Both the position numbers and the translations under genes were made by a program. A stretch of DNA of 62,194 nucleotides, taken from positions 1-62,194 of the forward strand of contig NZ_AQWU01000061.1 in NCBI RefSeq assembly GCF_000376265.1. Direction: 5' to 3'. Positions 45,962 to 54,825 of the stretch are shown here, one piece after another; within the stretch, counting starts at the first letter, position 1, and every line of letters starts with the position of its first letter. This DNA comes from Thermus igniterrae ATCC 700962. Its GTDB lineage: Bacteria; Deinococcota; Deinococci; Deinococcales; Thermaceae. Under the pieces are notes generated by a model. The model was given only the letters and a program-made list of their open reading frames with translations. It did not search any database and was not told the origin of the DNA.

Positions 45962-46519
45962 GTGTACACGGGGGCGGTGCTGGCGGGGGGGTACTCCCGG
46001 CGGTTTGGCCAGGACAAGGCCCTCTTCCCCTACCGGGGCAAGCCCCTCCTGGCCTGGGTGCTGGAAAGCCTTTCCGGGGCCGAGGAGCGCTTCGTGGTGG
46101 CCAACCGCCCTTACGAGGGCTTCGGGGTTCCCGTCTACCCCGACCTCCTGCCCGGGGCCGACAGCCTCTCGGGTCTCCACTCTGCCCTGGTCCACGCCCG
46201 CTTCCCCTGGGTGGCGGTGGCGGCCACCGACCTCCCCTTCCTCACCCCGGCCTACTGGGCCTTCCTCCACGAAAAGGCCCTGGCCTCCCCCTACCCGGTG
46301 GTGGTGGTCCACAACCCGGAAGGCCACCTGGAGCCCCTCATGGCCTTTTACCACAAGGAATGCCTGCCCCAGGTGGAGCGGCAGATCCGGGAGGGGGATT
46401 TCCTCCTGCGCCGGGTGGTGGAGGTCCTGGGGGCCACCCACGTGCCGGCGGTGGAGGTGGTGGGGCGCTTTGGGGAGAAGGTTTTCCTGAACGCCAACCG
46501 CAAGGAAGAGCTTCCCTAG
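45962..46519 (+). CDS. mobA: Molybdenum cofactor guanylyltransferase-like protein (MobA family)
   Basis: 185 residues. Nucleotidyltransferase fold with LAGGYSRRFGQDKAL near residue 8-22, the GTP/pterin loop, and ATDLPFLTP with the metal-binding Asp. MobA attaches GMP to molybdopterin; a tungsten or molybdenum enzyme such as AOR is encoded 30 kb away. GTG start 3 nt after the preceding stop. The stop shares CTAG with the converging fibre-locus barrel gene. Confidence 0.85.
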   Translation: MYTGAVLAGGYSRRFGQDKALFPYRGKPLLAWVLESLSGAEERFVVANRPYEGFGVPVYPDLLPGADSLSGLHSALVHARFPWVAVAATDLPFLTPAYWAFLHEKALASPYPVVVVHNPEGHLEPLMAFYHKECLPQVERQIREGDFLLRRVVEVLGATHVPAVEVVGRFGEKVFLNANRKEELP

Positions 46520-49377
46520 TCCCGCACCCGGATGCGCAGGGTGTGGACCAGCTGGCCGTCCAGGTAGAGGCCCAGCTCGTAGGCCCCAGGGGTCCTGGGG
46601 GCCAGGAGGCGGCCTTGGAAGGTGAGGTCGTCCACCCGCTCCAGGGGGAGGATCAGGGGGCCCAGGCGCACCTCCACCCGGGTTGCCCGGCGGAGGAGGC
46701 GGGCTGTAAGGCGCACCTCCTCCCCGGGGTCCAGGAGGGCGGGGGAGGCCTGGAGGGTGGCCAGGGGTCCGGGGCGCACGGTCAGGAAGGCGGAGGTCTC
46801 CGCGCTTTCGGGACCCCGCTCGGCCCGCACCTTCAGCTCCTGGCTCCCCACGCCCTCCACGGGCAGGTAGGCCCCGTAAACCCCCTCCTCCAGGGGCTCC
46901 AGGGGGTAGGTGCGCCCGCCCAGTTGGGCAAAGACCCGCTCGGGGCTACCCTGGACCTGGACCCTGAGGGCTAGCTCGGCCCCGGGGGGGAGGCTTGGCG
47001 GGAGGGGGAGGAGGACTAGGCCCAGGCTCTCCTCGGTGAGGGTGCGCACCACTTCCCGCACCACCGGTCGGGCGGGGAGGAGGACCTGGGGCAGGGGGCC
47101 GGGCTGGAGTTCCAGGGCCAGGGGTTCCCCAGGTTCTTGGAGCTTATCCAGGCTTGATGGGTCCAGGCTCAGGACGTACCGCCCTGGCAGGAGGCCCCCG
47201 ATGACGAAGGCCCCCCGGCCGTCGGCTACTGTCGTGCGGGCCTCCTGCCCCTGGAGACGCACCCGGGCATAGGGCAGGGGGGGCTCTTCCGGGTCCCGGG
47301 TGCCGTTGCGGTTCTCGTCCAGGTAAACCTGGCCCAGAAGGCCCACCACGGTTTCCACGGGGAGGTCCAGGGGCAGGGTCTGGCCCCGCTCCACCCGCAC
47401 CTCCACCCGCCGCCGCAGGGCCAGGGTGGCCTCGAGGCCCCCCACCTCCAGGCGGTAGCTTCCCGGGTAGAGCTCCAGGCGGAAGCGTCCCTGGCCGTCC
47501 GCCACCGCTTCCAAGGCTCCCACGCGCACCCGGGCCCCTGGAAGGGGGGGTTCTTCCAGCCCCTTGAGGCCATCGCGGTTCCGGTCGTGGAAGACCACGC
47601 CCTCCAGAAAGCCCGTGGCCCGGCCCCCAAAGGCCTGGACCAGGGGCTCGGGGGTGTCAAACCCTCCCTTGAACTCCACCGCCCCCAGGGCCTGGACCCT
47701 CAGGGCTCCCTCCCGGTAGGTCCCCTCGAGGCCCAGGCCCAGGGCCCCTTCCTGGTACTTGAGGCCGAAGCGCGCCTCGGAGCTCCCGCGGTTCAGGTCG
47801 TAGCCCAGGAGGAGGCTGCCCTCAAAGGGGGGAAAGCTCCCCTGGCCCAGAAGCTGCGCCCGGTGCTCCCCGCCCACGGCGCTCAGGCCTACCTGGAGGC
47901 TCAGGGCGGACTCGCGGTAGGCGGCATAGAGGCCGTACCCCGGGCCTTGGGGGCTTTGCAGGAGGCTTCCGCCCACCTCGAGGCCTCCCTCGCGGTAGCG
48001 CCCCGCCAGGCCCAGGAGGATACCCCCCTGGTAGCCCAGGGTGGCGGTCAGGGAGAAGGGCTGGCCGGGCGGGCGGTGGGTGAGGGAGTAGAGCAGGCCG
48101 GGAGGGGTGCCCAGGCGGAGGGTGAGGCTTTGCCCCAGGCTTTCGTCCAGGCGCTGGGTGAGGGAGGCGCTCCCCTGGAGCCTACCTCCCTCGTAGGCCA
48201 CCTCCCCCCGCAGGCCCAGGGGGTCCTGGGAGCGGCTGGCCCCTCCCAGGCGTAGCCTCAGGCCCTCCACGTATGCCACCTGGGCCCCCAGGCTGAACTC
48301 CCGGGTCTCCCACCGGGCCTCGAGGCCCCCCCCCACCTGGACCGCCTCGGGGTGGGCGCGGCGGTAAACCGCCCCGTAGGGGAGGAGCAGGAGGCCCTCC
48401 GCCACCCTCAGGGCGTAGCCCACGCTGAAGCGCTGCCCCTGGGGGCTGAGGTGCAGGGCGGCCTGCCAGGGGTCGCCCTCGTACCCCAGCCCCAGGCTCA
48501 CCCCGCCCGTGGCCCAGGCGGCGTAGGCCCGCAAGGGGCCCAGCTCGCCGTCCAGGCGCCAGAGCCCCTCAAAGGCCCGGAAGCCCAGGGCAAACCCCTC
48601 CCCGAAAAACCCCACCTCTCCCCGGAGGCCCTGCCCGTCCAGGGCCAGGCTGGAGTCCAGGCGGACGTAGTCGGAAAGGGAGCCCGAAAGGGAAAGCCCC
48701 AAGGCCAGACCCAGGCCCTGGGGGCCGTACCGCCCGCTCAGGCCAAACCGGTAGAGGAGGGCCTGGCGCCCCAGGCGCTCCGCCCCGGCAAAGGGCTGGA
48801 CCACGGTTTCCAGCACGCCGTAGGCCCGCACCCTGGGGTCCAGCCCCGAGGAGGCCACCACCGTGGCCGTGTCCCGGTTCCGGCCCAGGAGGCGGATCTC
48901 CAGGACCACGGCCTCCGCCTCCCCTGGGCCCAGCTCCACCACCTCCTTGGAGAGGCGGAAGGGAAGGAGGCTTTTCACCTCCAGCCGGATGCGGTCTTGG
49001 GCGTTGCCCGTGTTGCGCACCAGGAGGGGGTAGGCCAGGGTCTCCCCCTCCACGCCTTCCCCCCCTGGAGGGGTTCGTAGCTCCACCCCGGCCCGGGGGG
49101 GGATGCGCAGGCGCACCACCCGCTCCTCCCGGGCGTCCCGCAGGCGCAAGGGGAGTTCCCCTGCCCTGGCCTCCGGCCCCACCAGGAGGTTGAGCACCCC
49201 CTCTCCCTCCACCCCCTCGCTGAGGAGGAGGAGGCCTGGGGGTACCTCCACCGCCACGATCCGGCCCTCCCCCCGCACGGGCACGCTCACGAAAGCTCCC
49301 GGTGGGGCCTCGAGGGCCTCGGGGGCCTCGAGGGCCAGCCCTAGGCCCACAAAGAGGAGGAGGGCCAGCGGGCGCAT
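46516..49377 (-). CDS. Usher-like outer-membrane barrel protein with B-type repeats
   Basis: 953 residues. Signal peptide (LALLLFVGLGLALEA); residues ~25-190 Ig/NEW3-like; ~190-590 a long series of alternating strands (LGLALGLSLSGSL, LSLGAQVAYVEGLRLRLGG, LLLGYDLNRGSSEARFGLKY) fitting a large beta-barrel; ~600-720 two SdrD/Cna B-type repeats, FHDRNRDG and YLDENRNG, with calcium-type loops; then Ig-like strands. It lies at the end of an operon of subunit-like and chaperone-like genes, at the place of a fimbrial usher. No classical FimD usher signature is seen, so 'usher-like' rests on context and architecture. Confidence 0.65.
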   Translation of the reverse strand: MRPLALLLFVGLGLALEAPEALEAPPGAFVSVPVRGEGRIVAVEVPPGLLLLSEGVEGEGVLNLLVGPEARAGELPLRLRDAREERVVRLRIPPRAGVELRTPPGGEGVEGETLAYPLLVRNTGNAQDRIRLEVKSLLPFRLSKEVVELGPGEAEAVVLEIRLLGRNRDTATVVASSGLDPRVRAYGVLETVVQPFAGAERLGRQALLYRFGLSGRYGPQGLGLALGLSLSGSLSDYVRLDSSLALDGQGLRGEVGFFGEGFALGFRAFEGLWRLDGELGPLRAYAAWATGGVSLGLGYEGDPWQAALHLSPQGQRFSVGYALRVAEGLLLLPYGAVYRRAHPEAVQVGGGLEARWETREFSLGAQVAYVEGLRLRLGGASRSQDPLGLRGEVAYEGGRLQGSASLTQRLDESLGQSLTLRLGTPPGLLYSLTHRPPGQPFSLTATLGYQGGILLGLAGRYREGGLEVGGSLLQSPQGPGYGLYAAYRESALSLQVGLSAVGGEHRAQLLGQGSFPPFEGSLLLGYDLNRGSSEARFGLKYQEGALGLGLEGTYREGALRVQALGAVEFKGGFDTPEPLVQAFGGRATGFLEGVVFHDRNRDGLKGLEEPPLPGARVRVGALEAVADGQGRFRLELYPGSYRLEVGGLEATLALRRRVEVRVERGQTLPLDLPVETVVGLLGQVYLDENRNGTRDPEEPPLPYARVRLQGQEARTTVADGRGAFVIGGLLPGRYVLSLDPSSLDKLQEPGEPLALELQPGPLPQVLLPARPVVREVVRTLTEESLGLVLLPLPPSLPPGAELALRVQVQGSPERVFAQLGGRTYPLEPLEEGVYGAYLPVEGVGSQELKVRAERGPESAETSAFLTVRPGPLATLQASPALLDPGEEVRLTARLLRRATRVEVRLGPLILPLERVDDLTFQGRLLAPRTPGAYELGLYLDGQLVHTLRIRVRD

Positions 49378-49380
49378 GGC

Positions 49381-49851
49381 CTAAAGGCGGCTCAGGGTGA
49401 AGACCAGGCTACCCCGGTACACCCCGGGCGCTTCCCTTCCCGTGAGGATCAGGCGGAACTCCAGGGTGTGGCTCCGGTACCCCCCGGTGGGCCCGGTGCC
49501 CGTGAGGAGCACCACCCTGGGCCCCAGGGGAATCCAGGGGCCGCCGTTCAGCCGGTACTCCACCTGTCCAGCAGGGATCTCTGCCCCGCTCGGGGAGAGG
49601 AGGGGGCTCGCCTCCACCTCCACGGCGAAGCCCCCTTCCAGGTTGGTGAAAAGCCTAAGGGTCAGGGGGCCGTTGGGGCGGGAGGGGCCGTAGGCAAAGG
49701 GGAAGCTGGGGGGTGGGAAGGGGGCTTGGCTCAGGTCAAAAAGCACCTCCTCGGCGCTCAGGGAGAGGCTGGTCCCCTCGGGCAGGTTCACCCCAATGGG
49801 CACCTGGGCCAGGGCCAGGCCTAGGGAGAGCCATAGGGCAAGAAACCGCAT
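49381..49851 (-). CDS. Exported fibre-subunit-like protein, small
   Basis: 156 residues with signal peptide (LALWLSLGLALAQ). Beta-rich. The C-terminal strand reads GVYRGSLVFTLSRL: Gly at -14, Tyr at -12 and hydrophobic residues at -4, -6, -8 and -10, as in chaperone-usher pilins. LRLFTNLEGGFAVEV and LEFRLILTGREAPG align with the 268-residue protein at the start of the operon. ATG overlaps the chaperone gene stop (TGATG). Its position between chaperone and usher suggests an adaptor, tip or terminator subunit. Confidence 0.65.
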   Translation of the reverse strand: MRFLALWLSLGLALAQVPIGVNLPEGTSLSLSAEEVLFDLSQAPFPPPSFPFAYGPSRPNGPLTLRLFTNLEGGFAVEVEASPLLSPSGAEIPAGQVEYRLNGGPWIPLGPRVVLLTGTGPTGGYRSHTLEFRLILTGREAPGVYRGSLVFTLSRL

Positions 49852-50633
49852 CAGCGCACCTCAATCCGTCCTTCCCCTGCGATGAGGCTTGGGCTTCCGT
49901 AGTCCAGGACCGCCAGGACCAGGTAGCGCCCGGGGGGCAGAACCCGGTCCAGGGGGGCGGGAAGCTCGTGGGTGGCCCCCGGGAGGCTGGCGGTCTCCGG
50001 CACCTGCCCCTGGGCCACGGGGCGGCCCTGGGCGTCCCGCACCTCCACCCTGCCCTTCAGGCGCAGGAGGCCAGTGCCCGTGTTCTGGAACACCAGGCGC
50101 ACCTGGGCGGGACCCTCCTGGCCCTGGGGCAGGTAGCGGAACCCCTGGATGCGCCCCGAGCGGGTCACCTGCCCCACCTCCACATAGACCACGTGCCCCA
50201 CCCGGGTCTTGATGCGGATGCCCAGGCCCTCTCCTCCCTGGCGGTTCCCCGCGGGGGCGGACTCAAAGAACACCACCCCCCAGTAGGTGCCGGGCTGGGC
50301 CTCCTTGGGCACCTGCACGGTGTAGCGCACCTCCTGGGTGGCCTGGGGCTGGAGGAGGAAGACCAGGGGGGTCACGCTGAGCCAGCGGGTGAGGGAGCGG
50401 GGGTGGCTGCCGGGGTCCAGGTAGAGGGGTCTGCCGTCGGCCTGGAGGAGGACGTCCTGCAGCACCACCTCCACCTGGAGGGTGCCGCTCCGCCCGGGGT
50501 GGTCCACCACCAGGCTTCCCGTCAGGCTTGCCCCCGGGGTTGCCGGGTAGAGGGCCCGGGGTGGGCTGACGCCCACTCCCGTCTGCGCCAGGGCCAGGCC
50601 GGCCAGGAGGGTAAGGGGAAGGAGTTTTCGCAT
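49851..50633 (-). CDS. Exported Ig-fold, PapD-like periplasmic chaperone
   Basis: 260 residues with signal peptide (LLPLTLLAGLALAQ). Two Ig-like domains: the first with SLVVDHPGRSGTLQVEV, RWLSVTPLVFLLQPQATQEV and VPKEAQPGTYWGVVFFE, in the pattern of pilus chaperones and DUF916-type proteins; the second with VRLVFQNTGTGLLRLKGRVEV. The highly conserved Arg-Lys anchor pair of PapD cannot be placed with certainty. TAAAAT lies 7 nt before the ATG, so the chaperone-usher part has its own promoter after a terminator-like hairpin. Confidence 0.7.
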   Translation of the reverse strand: MRKLLPLTLLAGLALAQTGVGVSPPRALYPATPGASLTGSLVVDHPGRSGTLQVEVVLQDVLLQADGRPLYLDPGSHPRSLTRWLSVTPLVFLLQPQATQEVRYTVQVPKEAQPGTYWGVVFFESAPAGNRQGGEGLGIRIKTRVGHVVYVEVGQVTRSGRIQGFRYLPQGQEGPAQVRLVFQNTGTGLLRLKGRVEVRDAQGRPVAQGQVPETASLPGATHELPAPLDRVLPPGRYLVLAVLDYGSPSLIAGEGRIEVR

Positions 50634-50692: not shown

Positions 50693-51370
50693 CTAGAGGG
50701 CGGCCAGCTGGAAGAGGAAGTTGAACTGGTAGATGTCCGCCACCTCGGAGCCGTCAAACCAGAAGGCCTCGATGATGATGTCGTCCAGCCAGCCGGGGAG
50801 GCGGTTCCCCAGGACCTTGAGGAGTTCAAGGGGCTGGCCCTGGTCCTGCCCGTTGATCTGGACGAACTTGTAGTGGTTGATGTCGAGAGCCTTATCGATC
50901 ACCCCCGCCTGGCCGTACTTGGACCCGCCCTGGGTCCGGGTCACCTTGAGGTCCAGCTCGCAACCCTCTTTGTTGTTGCAGAACTTCTGGAGCACCTTCT
51001 GGTTGAGGCAGATGAGGGTGCCCTTTTCGCCAGGCTCTATCTTCCCGTTCCCGTCCAGGTCCTTGACGGCGGGGTAGACGTTGATGGGGGTGAGCTGCCC
51101 ACCAAGGGCGGCGTTGATGGCGTCCTGCAGGGTGCCCTGGAAGCCCTTGGGCACCAGGAAGCAACCCTCCCCGTTGCCACCCAGGGGCGGGTTGTTCAGG
51201 TCCAGGACCCACTCGTCCTCGGTCAGGTGCAGGGCCACCCGCTGGGGGATGGTGAGGTTGATCCGCTCGGTCACGGTGGCCTGCTCGTTCCCGGAATTCA
51301 CCACCTCCCCGGCCAGGACGAACCCTCCCAACAGGGCCAGGACCAGGACGGGGATGAGAGGCTTCCGCAC
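50693..51370 (-). CDS. Exported fibre-subunit-like protein with EF-hand loop (major subunit candidate 2)
   Basis: 225 residues with signal peptide (LIPVLVLALLGGFVLAG). Paralogue of the next upstream gene: both have ALHLTEDEW, LNNPP, GC-LVPK, INxYPAxKD, KVLQKF and GWLDDxIxExFWFDG. DLDGNGKIEPGE is a canonical EF-hand calcium loop. The last strand (DIYQFNFLFQLAAL) has Tyr at -12 and hydrophobics at -4 to -10, but Asp rather than Gly at -14. Three cysteines are shared with the paralogue (GCFLVPK region, LICLNQK, and one more), which could form disulfides. GTG start follows AAAGGAGG. Confidence 0.68.
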   Translation of the reverse strand: MRKPLIPVLVLALLGGFVLAGEVVNSGNEQATVTERINLTIPQRVALHLTEDEWVLDLNNPPLGGNGEGCFLVPKGFQGTLQDAINAALGGQLTPINVYPAVKDLDGNGKIEPGEKGTLICLNQKVLQKFCNNKEGCELDLKVTRTQGGSKYGQAGVIDKALDINHYKFVQINGQDQGQPLELLKVLGNRLPGWLDDIIIEAFWFDGSEVADIYQFNFLFQLAAL

Positions 51371-51382
51371 GGTTAGCCTCCT

Positions 51383-52120
51383 TTACAGACCCACCAGGGT
51401 GAAGGTCACGGTGAGGGTGTAGGTGCCGTCCAGCTCCGTGCCGTCAAACCAGAACCCTTCCACGATGAGGTCATCCAGCCAGCCGCCCGTGGTGCCACTG
51501 CTCTGAGCCAGGACCACGGGGCCGAAGGGGAGGGAGTTGGCGAAGTAGGGCTGCCCGATTTGGTTCCCCACCACATCCGTGATGGCGAAGTAGCCGAAGC
51601 CGCTGGTGGGCTGGCCGGTAACGCTCACGCTGAGCTTCCAGCCATCGGGGTCGTTGGAGAACTTCTGCAACACCTTGTGGTTGACGCAGAGGAGAGTGCC
51701 CTTCTCGTTGTCCTCCAGCTTGCCGTCCCCATCGTAGTCCTTGGCGGCCGGGTAGGTGTTTATGGGCCGGAGCACCCCGCCTCCTCCGATGTAGCTAACC
51801 AGATCGCCTGTCGTTTTCACCGCCTTGGGCACCAAGTAGCAGCCCTCAGCGGGGGGCTGGGGGTTTTGCGGGTTATAAACGTAGTCATTGGGGGCCGCCG
51901 GGGGGTTGTTGAGGTTCAGGTTCCACTCATCTTCCGTGAGGTGGAGGGCGTAGCGGGGCGGGATGATGACCTTCACCTTCTCCTTCACCGCCGCCTGGTC
52001 GTGGTTGTCATCGTAGAGCTCCTCCACCTGCCCGTCCAGGTCCCCCTCCGTGGGGAAGCCCACCTGGGCGTAGGCCGCCGCCAAGGCCAGGGCCATTAGC
52101 GCAATCCACCACTTCCGCAT
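51383..52120 (-). CDS. Exported fibre-subunit-like protein with EF-hand loop (major subunit candidate 1)
   Basis: 245 residues with signal peptide (IALMALALAAAYAQ). Shares its central block and C-terminus with the following gene. The calcium loop is DYDGDGKLEDNE. The C-terminal strand GTYTLTVTFTLVGL has Gly at -14, Tyr at -12 and alternating hydrophobics. A longer N-terminal segment (DNHDQAAVKEKVKVIIPP) precedes the subunit domain and could act as donor strand. ATG 52120 follows AGGAGG. Probably a structural subunit of a surface fibre. Confidence 0.68.
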   Translation of the reverse strand: MRKWWIALMALALAAAYAQVGFPTEGDLDGQVEELYDDNHDQAAVKEKVKVIIPPRYALHLTEDEWNLNLNNPPAAPNDYVYNPQNPQPPAEGCYLVPKAVKTTGDLVSYIGGGGVLRPINTYPAAKDYDGDGKLEDNEKGTLLCVNHKVLQKFSNDPDGWKLSVSVTGQPTSGFGYFAITDVVGNQIGQPYFANSLPFGPVVLAQSSGTTGGWLDDLIVEGFWFDGTELDGTYTLTVTFTLVGL

Positions 52121-52186: not shown

Positions 52187-52993
52187 CTAGAGGAGCACGA
52201 GGGTGTACACCAACCAGCCCTCGTACTCGCCTGGAACCTCGGAACCGTCCAGCCGGAGCTTGATGCCCAGGGTGACCGACTGCCAGCCGCCCGGGTGGTC
52301 CAGCACCTCCTCCAGGAGCACCCCGCCCGTGGGGCCCGGGGGGGCCGGGCAGATGTGGGAGGGGGGCCGGTCCCAGTCGGGGTGGTAGCCCAGGCACTTC
52401 CAGTGGGGGGTGGGGGGCACCCCGCCCCGACCGGTGAGGATGGAGTGCATGGCGAAGTGGTTGGCCTCCAGCACGTCGCCCGTGGGGCTCCTGGGCTCCA
52501 CCTCAAAGGCCACGGAGAGGGCCCACCGCCTGGCCTGGGTGAAGACGTGGAGGCGCATGGAGGGGTGGGTGAAGAACTGAGGGAAGGCCTTGGAACCGGG
52601 GATTACCCGTCCTTGCCCGTCCAGGCGCACGGGAGGGTAGGGGCGCCCCTCCTCGTCCAGGAGGCGGCCGTCCCCCCCGTAGAGGGCCACGCAATGGGGG
52701 GGTACGGGGCCTAGGGTGGCGCAACGCAGGTCAAAGACCACCTCGGGGTCCCGCAGGCAGAGGGTGGGGTCTGCCGGGTTTCTCGGACAGTAGGGGGGTT
52801 GGGGTGGGTTCGGGGGACGGTTCCCCCGCTGGGCCAAAAGCGGCACCGCCTTCACCCCTCCCACGGCTGGGGGTTCCAGCACCAGGACCGTGCGTTCGGG
52901 AATCGCGACCTCTATCCGCAAGGAGGCTTGGGGGCCTGCCGCCGCCAGGAGGAGGGGCAGGAGCGCATACCAGGCCAGGTGCCCAAGCCTCAT
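52187..52993 (-). CDS. Exported fibre-subunit-like protein, first gene of the operon (tip candidate)
   Basis: 268 residues with signal peptide (LAWYALLPLLLAAAGPQ). An insertion of about 130 residues with several cysteines (PPYCPRNPADPTLCL, LRCATL, HCVALYGG) sits between the N-terminal strand and the C-terminal subunit fold, so it is larger than its relatives, like a tip adhesin. The final strand GEYEGWLVYTLVLL has Gly at -14 and Tyr at -12. ATG 52993 is preferred over GTG 53002 because GGGAGG lies 8 nt before it. Confidence 0.65.
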   Translation of the reverse strand: MRLGHLAWYALLPLLLAAAGPQASLRIEVAIPERTVLVLEPPAVGGVKAVPLLAQRGNRPPNPPQPPYCPRNPADPTLCLRDPEVVFDLRCATLGPVPPHCVALYGGDGRLLDEEGRPYPPVRLDGQGRVIPGSKAFPQFFTHPSMRLHVFTQARRWALSVAFEVEPRSPTGDVLEANHFAMHSILTGRGGVPPTPHWKCLGYHPDWDRPPSHICPAPPGPTGGVLLEEVLDHPGGWQSVTLGIKLRLDGSEVPGEYEGWLVYTLVLL

Positions 52994-53016
52994 CCTTCTC
53001 ACCTCCCTTGCCGGCC

Positions 53017-53022
53017 ACCTTA
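53017..53022 (-). promoter_or_regulatory. Candidate -10 element of the fibre operon
   Basis: Minus-strand TAAGGT, identical to the -10 of the pyr promoter, about 24 nt before ATG 52993. Two GCTTAACG repeats lie 10 bp upstream of it in the position of the -35 element, an arrangement like SARP-controlled promoters. Confidence 0.5.
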
Positions 53023-53031
53023 GCAGGGGGG

Positions 53032-53051
53032 GCGTTAAGCCCTCGTTAAGC
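53032..53051. repeat. Paired CGTTAAGC repeats 11 bp apart (operator candidate, operon side)
   Basis: CGTTAAGC at 53033-53040 and again at 53044-53051, exactly one helical turn apart, overlapping the -35 region of the leftward operon. A third perfect copy is at 53089-53096. Confidence 0.7.
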
Positions 53052-53088
53052 GGGTCCGGGATATTTTGACAGGGCTTTCACGGGGGAG

Positions 53089-53148
53089 CGTTAAGCTGAA
53101 CCCGTCTGGAGCTCTGGGCGTTAGCGCGGGGTTAACGCTAGTCTTAAC
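53089..53148. repeat. Further CGTTAAGC-type repeats (operator candidate, regulator side)
   Basis: A perfect CGTTAAGC at 53089-53096, then variants with TTAG or TTAA cores at 53121, 53132 and 53144, spaced 11 and 12 bp. The last one abuts the ribosome site of the regulator gene, so self-regulation is plausible. TTGACA at 53066-53071 may be a -35, but no good -10 follows at 17 nt. Confidence 0.6.
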
Positions 53149-53160
53149 GGAGGTGGAGCG

Positions 53161-54821
53161 GTGAAGGTGCGGCTTCCCCTGTACGGTCCTGCCCGAGCCG
53201 AGGGGCCCCTTGGTCCCCTGTCCTTGCGGCGCAAGGCCCTGGGCATCCTCTACTACCTGGCCCTCGAGGGCCCCACCCGCAGGGAGAGGCTAGCCGACCT
53301 CCTCTGGGGGCATGGGGCTGCTTTGCAGAACCTCCGGGTGGAGCTCACCTATCTGCGGGGGTTCCTGGGTAAGGAGGCCCTCCGGGGGCAGGTGCTGGAG
53401 CTGCCCCCCGGGGTGGTGCTGGACCGGAACCCGAAGATAGGGGAGGCCCTGGAGGGCCTGGAGGAAGTGTCCCCCGCCTTTGCCGACTGGGTGCGCTCTT
53501 GGCGGGAGCGTTCCGCCTCGCCCCTCGAGGCCCTCCCCCTGACCGAGAGGCTCCAGGCCGTCCAGCCCCCGGCCTTGGTGATTCTCATCGGTCCGCCGGG
53601 ATCGGGGCGGGAGGCCTTGGCCTAGGCCCTAGCGAAGCGGCTTGGCCTCCCTTTCCGGCGGGGGCTGGGGCAGGGCCCAGGGGTGTTCTACTTCGGCGAC
53701 CCCCTGCCTCCCCGGGAGGCGGCCTACGGCCTCCGGCCCACCCCGGGGCAGGTGCTGGTGGTGGCCCGGAGCGCCTTTGGCGAGGACCCCGCCTTCCTCC
53801 TGGTCCTGCGGGGTTCTTTTCCCGCCGAGATCACCGTGGCCGAGCCCGTCCCCCGCCTTACCTGGCCGGAGGCCTGGAGAGGGCCCTTGCGCGGCTACTC
53901 CTTCCCCGAGGCGGCGCGCTTTTACCTGGAAAGCGGGGGGCGGGCGGAACTCCTGAAGGAGATGGTGGCCATGGGGAGCCCCGAGGCCATACCCCAGCGC
54001 ATCCGGGCCCAGGTTCTCCTCGAGGCCCGCTACCTCTCTCTGGAGGCCCGCAAGGCCCTGGAGGTCCTTTCCCTCCACCCCAGCCCCTTCCCGGAGGAGC
54101 TGGCCGAGGCTTTGGGCGTGGCCCAGTACCTGGACGAGCTGGAGCGCCGGGGGTGGCTTGTGCTGGGGGAGCGGGGTTACCGGTTTGCCGAGCCCCAGTT
54201 CTGCCGCTTCCTGATCGCGGAACTGGCCCAGGGAGAGCGGCTTCGCCTCCACCGGCTCATGGCCGAGGGGTTTCGCAAGGTGGGGGATCCGGTAGCCGAG
54301 GCCTACCACCGCTACTGGGCCGGGGAGGACGTGTGCCCTCCCACCGGCCTCAGGCCGTGGCAGGAGCCCCAGTCCCCGGCCTCCGAGGCGGGGGTGCCGT
54401 GGATGCAGGTGGGACTCGGGCCGGTGCGGGCCCTCGAGGCGCCCCAGGAGGCGGTTTTAGTCTCCTGGGGGGGCGAGGAGGAGGGGCTTTGCCTGGAGCT
54501 GGAGGAACCGGCGGTGCTGCACATTTCGGGCAACCTTTACCAGGAGCTTCCCTTTGGCCTGGGTTTGGTCCAGGACAACTTCCCCTTGCGGCTAAGGGGG
54601 GGAGGGTACGCTATATACTTCCTTCCCCGGGCGGCTCCGGCGGTTTTCCCAGGGGGAACGGTCCTTCCCCAGGAACCCCTGGACTACCGCCTCTTCCTTC
54701 CCCCCGGGCCTTACCGCTTGGAGCTTGGGGTAAAGGGCGTGGCCCACCTGCACCTCCGGGTTCACGCGGTCAAAAAGGGCCAGGAACAGGTCCTGGCCCT
54801 CCTGGGGCAACCGGTGAAGGT

Positions 54822-54825
<4 letters not shown>
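53161..54825 (+). pseudogene. SARP/AfsR-like transcriptional regulator interrupted by an in-frame TAG
   Basis: 555 codons in one frame, with TAG at codon 155 (53623-53625). Residues 1-~95 form a winged-helix DNA-binding domain like SARP/BTAD regulators (LRRKALGILYYLALEGPTRR, LADLLWG, LRVELTYLRGFLG). Walker A GPPGSGREAL begins near residue 141, and the TAG falls in the helix just after it. The frame then stays open for 400 codons with regulator-like helical sequence (LHRLMAEGFRKVG, AEAYHRYWAGED) and a beta-rich C-terminus. GTG start follows GGAGG. Fragments: 53161-53625 and 53626-54825. It could be a sequencing error, a recent mutation, or read through at low level. It shares CTAG with lon. 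Confidence 0.75.

Follow-up and report, generated by a model that had tools for sequence, protein, structure and literature searches.

Question and arrangement of the repeats

Which protein reads the short direct repeats that lie between an interrupted regulator gene and a surface ("fibre") operon in Thermus igniterrae ATCC 700962, and what does it do there? The repeats fall within positions 53032–53149 of the window, by which we mean the whole stretch of 62,194 nucleotides that was analysed. A sequence-only reading of this DNA had counted six copies, compared their 11-bp steps with the sites of SARP regulators and named the broken regulator next door as the natural candidate ligand.

The exact sequence CGTTAAGC is found on the plus strand at 53033, 53044 and 53089 and has no other copy in the 62-kb window. 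Three variants are also read on the plus strand, TTAGCG at 53121–53126 and TTAACG at 53132–53137 and 53144–53149, with steps of 11 and 12 bp, and these are oriented opposite to the three exact copies. All six, three perfect and three with TT cores, lie where the sequence-only reading had placed them. The six repeats do not form one array, however. The pair 53033/53044, the copy at 53089 and the array 53121–53149 are separate elements; the TT-core variants are present, but as an element further downstream and not in the same array as the exact copies.

How unusual is the local pattern? Dinucleotide-preserving shuffles of the 117-bp region contained an 8-mer three times in 32 cases of 20,000, and an 8-mer pair at exactly 11 bp likewise in 32 of 20,000. 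Some 8-mer occurs three times in 84 of 6,208 overlapping 117-bp windows (about 1.4%), so that the triple 8-mer alone is not decisive. The pattern is unusual, not extreme, and the decisive facts are conservation and spacing. Among 27 Thermus genomes, GTTAAG..GTTAA pairs were counted 40 times at 11 bp and six times at 12 bp, against about one on average at each other spacing; many of the 40 are orthologous and the counts are not independent, but the preference for 11 bp in Thermus is unmistakable.

The surface operon and its proposed promoter

The minus strand from 53049 to 53017 reads TTAACG-N5-TTAACG-N10-TAAGGT, which we interpret as the promoter of the surface operon. Its upstream half-site (53044–53049) occupies the -35 position, the downstream half-site (53033–53038) lies 11 bp from the first, and the -10 element TAAGGT (53017–53022) stands exactly 10 nt from the nearer half-site, as the sequence-only reading had noted. 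SARP promoters place the 3′ repeat about 8 bp from the -10 element, overlapping the -35 region; the distance from half-site hexamer to TAnnnT is here 10 nt in all nine loci that keep the operon, or 6 nt if the 11-bp repeat unit is counted, so that the comparison depends on the length taken for the unit. At this promoter there is no conserved -35 hexamer besides the repeats themselves.

In SARP promoters, direct repeats with a step of 11 or 22 bp adjoin the -10 element, and the afs box extends over the -35 element (PMC10936776). The rule of 11-bp repeats, which the sequence-only reading had invoked for this locus, agrees with that paper. The fibre promoter fits it in its spacing, with a step of 11 bp in 9/9 loci that keep the operon, and for this reason two regulator molecules side by side on the half-sites are the most economical reading. 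They would stand in for the -35 contact and bring in RNA polymerase, in the manner of SARPs.

The operon itself consists of six genes on the minus strand. The first codes for a secreted protein of 271 aa (52187–53002) and is followed by two secreted, subunit-like proteins related to each other, of 245 aa (51383–52120) and 225 aa (50693–51370). Next come an Ig-like, chaperone-like protein of 260 aa (49851–50633), a secreted protein of 156 aa (49381–49851) and a protein of 953 aa with SdrD_B/CarboxypepD_reg domains (46516–49377), which by inference is an outer-membrane or usher-like component. Relatives of the chaperone-like protein give weak fn3_5, WxLIP (WxL-interacting protein) and PapD-like model matches, hinting at a two-Ig-domain chaperone or a WxLIP-like protein. 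No convincing family was found for this fourth component, and the word "fibre" therefore stays an interpretation. More distant copies of its gene are present in several Thermus genomes, away from the focal locus.

Conservation among Thermus genomes

A related regulator is found at the same place in 11 other Thermus genomes, which together with the focal one gives 12 loci. Over the first 154 residues the identity is 74–79% in ten genomes and 56% in G004. The operon beside the regulator is kept in nine loci including the focal one, and the layout (11-bp step, N10, TAnnnT) is present in all nine. Phylogenetic footprinting had been proposed as a check, and it comes out in favour of the earlier reading: wherever regulator and operon are both retained in relatives, so are the paired repeats, with TAnnnT 10 bp further on. 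In the three loci where the operon is lost or reduced (G003, G004 and G010) the complete layout is missing in every case. G004 and G010 still hold repeats despite the operon being gone or reduced. The half-sites of a pair can also change together, with spacing and -10 element kept, as in T. arciformis and G005 (TTCACG/TTCACA).

In G003 (L086), G010 (L085) and G004 (L087) the operon was lost between mobA and the regulator; of the 953-aa gene, G010 retains no more than the final 222 residues, near the repeats. In Thermus parvatiensis (L130) and G022 (L103) the regulator is reduced to fragments, and the fetched flanks contain no homologue of the operon.

In all, 13 Thermus genomes and one of another genus carry a paralogue of the regulator that is in turn divergently oriented to an operon paralogous to the first, although in one or two of these loci the first operon gene is not recognisable. 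The intergenic region of this second module has GTAACG half-sites, N10 and TAnnnT in 11/14 loci, one of them with GTTACG as the second copy. The remaining three have GCAACG in one copy, GAAACG in both copies, and N9 instead of N10, respectively; the spacing is unchanged in the GCAACG and GAAACG/GAAACG loci. The 11-bp step, checked by eye or script, is kept in 13/14. The focal genome carries both modules, one of the TTAACG and one of the GTAACG type, and this coexistence in one genome means that the type of half-site follows the neighbouring regulator. With only two regulator clades, the match between half-site and regulator amounts to one consistent pattern and not to a series of independent tests.

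Distribution of the layout

The pattern KTMACG-N5-KTMACG-N10-TAnnnT had 16 matches in 27 Thermus genomes and none in the reversed control. Six belong to the focal module, nine to the paralogous module and one lies before a diguanylate cyclase gene. The sequence-only reading would have been refuted by repeats equally frequent in unrelated intergenic regions; in Thermus, 15 of the 16 full-layout matches adjoin the regulator or its paralogue. A layout match is present in 11/16 genomes with the regulator family and in 0/11 without it (Fisher p = 0.0003, the genomes not being independent). Searched with up to two mismatches, the 62-kb window yielded the focal site only. The sole full-layout match in Thermus away from these regulators (L145, G012:C2:188478-188510) reads TTCACG-N5-TTCACG-N10-TACTCT and ends just before the ATG of a second GGDEF gene.

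Across the whole family (50 genomes) there were 74 layout matches and, again, no control match. Genomes with more of the related winged-helix proteins tend to have more matches (Spearman 0.70, not corrected for relatedness). Varied genes follow the layout in Meiothermus and other genera, some of them apparently leaderless, and none of 18 sites outside Thermus (L173–L190) has such a regulator within the 1.5-kb flanks that were fetched. In Meiothermus and other Thermaceae, KTMACG 11-bp pairs with N10-TAnnnT, up to 8 per genome, precede many genes, among them a short ORF starting MSRE and one for a small protein starting MTEETLQ. Outside Thermus, then, the layout marks a broader Thermaceae promoter class in which adjacency to the regulator is not universal. 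In a Deinococcota MAG with operon homologues (L128) the site reads TTAACG-N5-GTCACG-N10-TACCTT; in a Truepera MAG (L122) GTAACG-N5-GTAACG-N10-TAAGGT stands in front of the gene for a secreted protein that ends like the fibre subunits. Both sites point away from a regulator of the focal family.

A second kind of 11-bp site, GTTAAG-N5-GTTAAG, lies between the stop codon of speA (arginine decarboxylase) and a membrane GGDEF gene in about 16 Thermus genomes. In the focal genome it is found at G000:C63:45303-45336 (L065), and the same pair was seen at L038, L044, L047, L048, L050, L052, L054, L055, L058 and L061–L064. In most of them N11 and CAnnnT come next, with an ATG about 6 nt further on, so that this is apparently a leaderless promoter. 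Written as TTAA-N7-TTAA-N12-YAnnnT, it spaces its TTAA cores just as the fibre promoter does. This pair is present also in genomes without the fibre regulator, which argues that another protein probably reads it; we have therefore rejected the idea that every 11-bp GTTAAG pair is a target of the focal regulator. Two more 11-bp GTTAAG pairs occur in G004 (L067, G004:C18:192345 and 193777), before genes for a lipoprotein and a secreted subtilisin-like protease.

Structure of the regulator protein

Searches of Pfam and NCBIfam with the regulator gave little, and PDB sequence profile searches returned only AAA+ P-loop matches plus weak ones to SaeR/VicR, so structure prediction was needed. The frame begins on the plus strand with a DNA-binding part of 154 aa, a SARP-type winged helix and linker (53161–53622), is interrupted by an in-frame TAG (53623–53625), and continues with a degenerate STAND module and a beta-sandwich (53626–54825, including a 380-aa ORF from 53683). 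This TAG, just after the P-loop, is the single interruption of an otherwise open frame, and ten relatives are uninterrupted. Beyond the TAG, divergence barely exceeds that seen among the relatives, from which it follows that the stop is recent or is a sequence error. In the focal strain the module may have been recently disabled, or it may be run by the DNA-binding fragment alone.

AF2 models were made of an intact orthologue (L003, mean pLDDT 81) and of the focal 154-residue N-terminal part (pLDDT 85). The L003 model has a winged helix at residues 1–90 approximately, a short helical linker, a P-loop module that includes a second winged helix, and a beta-rich C-terminal part. The best structural matches of the focal 154 residues are to AfsR, with Z of 10.6 and 10.0, followed by EmbR (Z 9.8, 117 residues, 2.8 A), while OmpR-type response regulators reach Z of 8.2 or less; Trans_reg_C is weakly matched by 7/21 members of the regulator family. 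By models and matches alike, the protein has the N-terminal OmpR-type winged helix of SARPs. It has no N-terminal receiver domain with a phosphorylatable Asp, the winged helix being the extreme N-terminus.

A full BTA domain, which in SARPs directly follows the winged helix and makes up half of the SARP domain, is absent, and no BTAD model in Pfam was matched. The stretch from the winged helix to the P-loop (138 on) is about 45 residues long and holds one to three helices in the model, which leaves no room for a full BTA domain. Since EmbR aligns as far as residue 120, the first linker helix could be what is left of it. Behind the linker, the P-loop module followed by a winged helix has the NB-ARC-like arrangement of STAND NTPases. 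In Foldseek this part matched the STAND protein 6mfv, 8bob (maltose system), plant NLRs and Apaf-1, and RuvB likewise scored high. None of the 14 aligned proteins has the Walker-A lysine; the region reads GPPGSG and then Q or R in the Thermus orthologues and has other residues elsewhere. The beta-sandwich presumably senses a signal. The earlier reading is thus supported, with a refinement: the DNA-binding domain matches AfsR and EmbR best, but without a full BTA domain the protein, as modelled, would work like a SARP without being a canonical one.

The regulator's own proposed promoter and leader

Upstream of the regulator gene on the plus strand lies TTGACA (53066–53071), a -35 element or weak half-site, with TTCACG (53077–53082) as a weak second half-site 11 bp from it. 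The -10 element TAAGCT (53092–53097) overlaps the third CGTTAAGC (53089–53096). A corresponding YTSACR-N20-TAnnnT precedes the regulator in 11/12 orthologous loci, and the weak second half-site is recognisable in about half of them. G003, which has lost the other repeats, keeps TTGACA-N20-TAAGAT at this place, and for that reason the copy at 53089 more plausibly represents the -10 element of the regulator. We accordingly rejected a third operator copy as its main reading, although it may be both -10 and operator. The sequence-only reading was right that the copy is an exact third occurrence; it is not a simple member of an array, since it overlaps the conserved -10 element. The whole promoter, TTGACA-N5-TTCACG-N9-TAAGCT, looks like a weaker version of the fibre layout and could give basal or self-activated expression.

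Further downstream, the array TTAGCG, TTAACG, TTAACG at 11/12 bp (53121–53149, +) lies in the 5′ leader of the regulator gene and ends at its Shine-Dalgarno sequence (GGAGG). Three TTAnCG copies between the predicted start of the regulator transcript and the ribosome site suggest a feedback operator, at which the bound regulator would block its own transcription.

Alternative explanations

Taken together, we consider it probable that the repeats are a SARP-type operator of the surface operon, most likely read by the adjacent regulator as an activator. The regulator had been named the natural candidate from the sequence alone, and its candidacy is strengthened by the SARP-like structure and by half-sites that vary with the paralogue even within one genome. 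Binding, activation, feedback and a sensed signal at this divergent control region are all deduced from DNA pattern and predicted fold, and should be taken as proposals.

Could the neighbour be a bystander, with the operator serving an OmpR/PhoB-type response regulator or a SARP-like protein encoded elsewhere? OmpR-type response regulators likewise recognise 11-bp direct repeats, the TTAA-N7-TTAA-N12-YAnnnT site before the diguanylate cyclase gene persists where the regulator is missing, and in other genera the layout occurs apart from such regulators. We nevertheless regard this explanation as unlikely. The complete KTMACG layout in Thermus is confined to genomes with the regulator family, directly beside it in 15 of 16 cases, its half-sites vary with the neighbouring paralogue even within a single genome, and structurally the adjacent DNA-binding domain matches SARPs best.

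The adjacent regulator might instead bind the pair as a repressor that blocks polymerase at the -35 position, so that its loss switches the operon on. The operator does overlap the -35 position, the leader array lies downstream of the regulator's promoter, where a bound protein only hinders, and the sign of regulation is not readable from sequence. The fixed N10 to the -10 element across distant relatives argues in the other direction, for a repressor site needs no fixed phase; so do the SARP-like fold and the lack of any recognisable -35 besides the repeats. Repression at the operon seems to us improbable. Finally, chance or compositional repeats of an AT-rich intergenic stretch in a GC-rich genome can be dismissed, for although TTAA-rich words cluster at low GC (59–61% in the repeat region against about 70% around it) and triple 8-mers are not rare in the window, the sharp 11-bp preference, the zero control matches and above all the conservation in relatives already refute them.

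Comparison with known systems and significance

How does the activator reading compare with regulators already described? The nearest system is AfsR at the afsS promoter of Streptomyces (PDB 8hvr, 8k60), which shares the OmpR-type winged helix and two 11-bp direct repeats that overlap the -35 element immediately before a -10, and which is also the top structural match for the DNA-binding domain; AfsR likewise has an extra nucleotide-binding module behind the DNA-binding part. In contrast to AfsR, the focal regulator has no full BTA domain and no Walker-A lysine, it carries a beta-sandwich in place of TPR, and its half-site is TTAACG/GTAACG, 10 nt from the -10 element and beside a surface operon in Deinococcota. 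The SARP-like EmbR of Mycobacterium tuberculosis (PDB 2ff4, 2fez) shares the SARP-type winged helix and the first linker helices. EmbR carries full BTA and FHA domains, whereas both are absent here. Response regulators of the PhoP/PhoB/OmpR type have the same winged-helix fold (Z up to 8.2) and 11-bp direct repeats, but the focal protein has no receiver, has a STAND-like fusion and matches them less well in structure. Within the genus, DnrS of Thermus thermophilus is also an activator with a SARP-type activation domain that acts on neighbouring operons; it differs in having GAF and C-terminal BTAD domains, in sensing oxygen and in its targets, and the paper that describes it reports no direct repeats (PMC5748679). 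In our literature collection, itself incomplete, we found no paper describing the regulator or the operon. What is new here is the missing SARP activation domain, the degenerate STAND module and the surface-operon context in Deinococcota.

A wider view can be offered only tentatively, and we hold it as somewhat less than an even prospect. There may exist in Deinococcota a family of BTA-less, degenerate-STAND SARP-like activators, duplicated together with surface-fibre operons and with half-sites diverged, which reads a promoter class (11-bp half-sites, N10, TAnnnT) that also covers other Thermaceae genes, with a related TTAA layout covering diguanylate cyclases. Because the layout is rare (74 matches in 50 genomes, zero in the control), candidate regulons can be mapped by pattern alone, and the duplicated modules, with TTAACG and GTAACG half-sites in one genome, are a natural experiment in specificity. 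SARP logic is known mainly from antibiotic control in actinomycetes. The present case would extend it to the control of surface structures in a thermophilic diderm, by a regulator without the activation domain that helps define SARPs, and, if the wider view is true, it would represent a phylum-level regulatory system for surface structures not described before.
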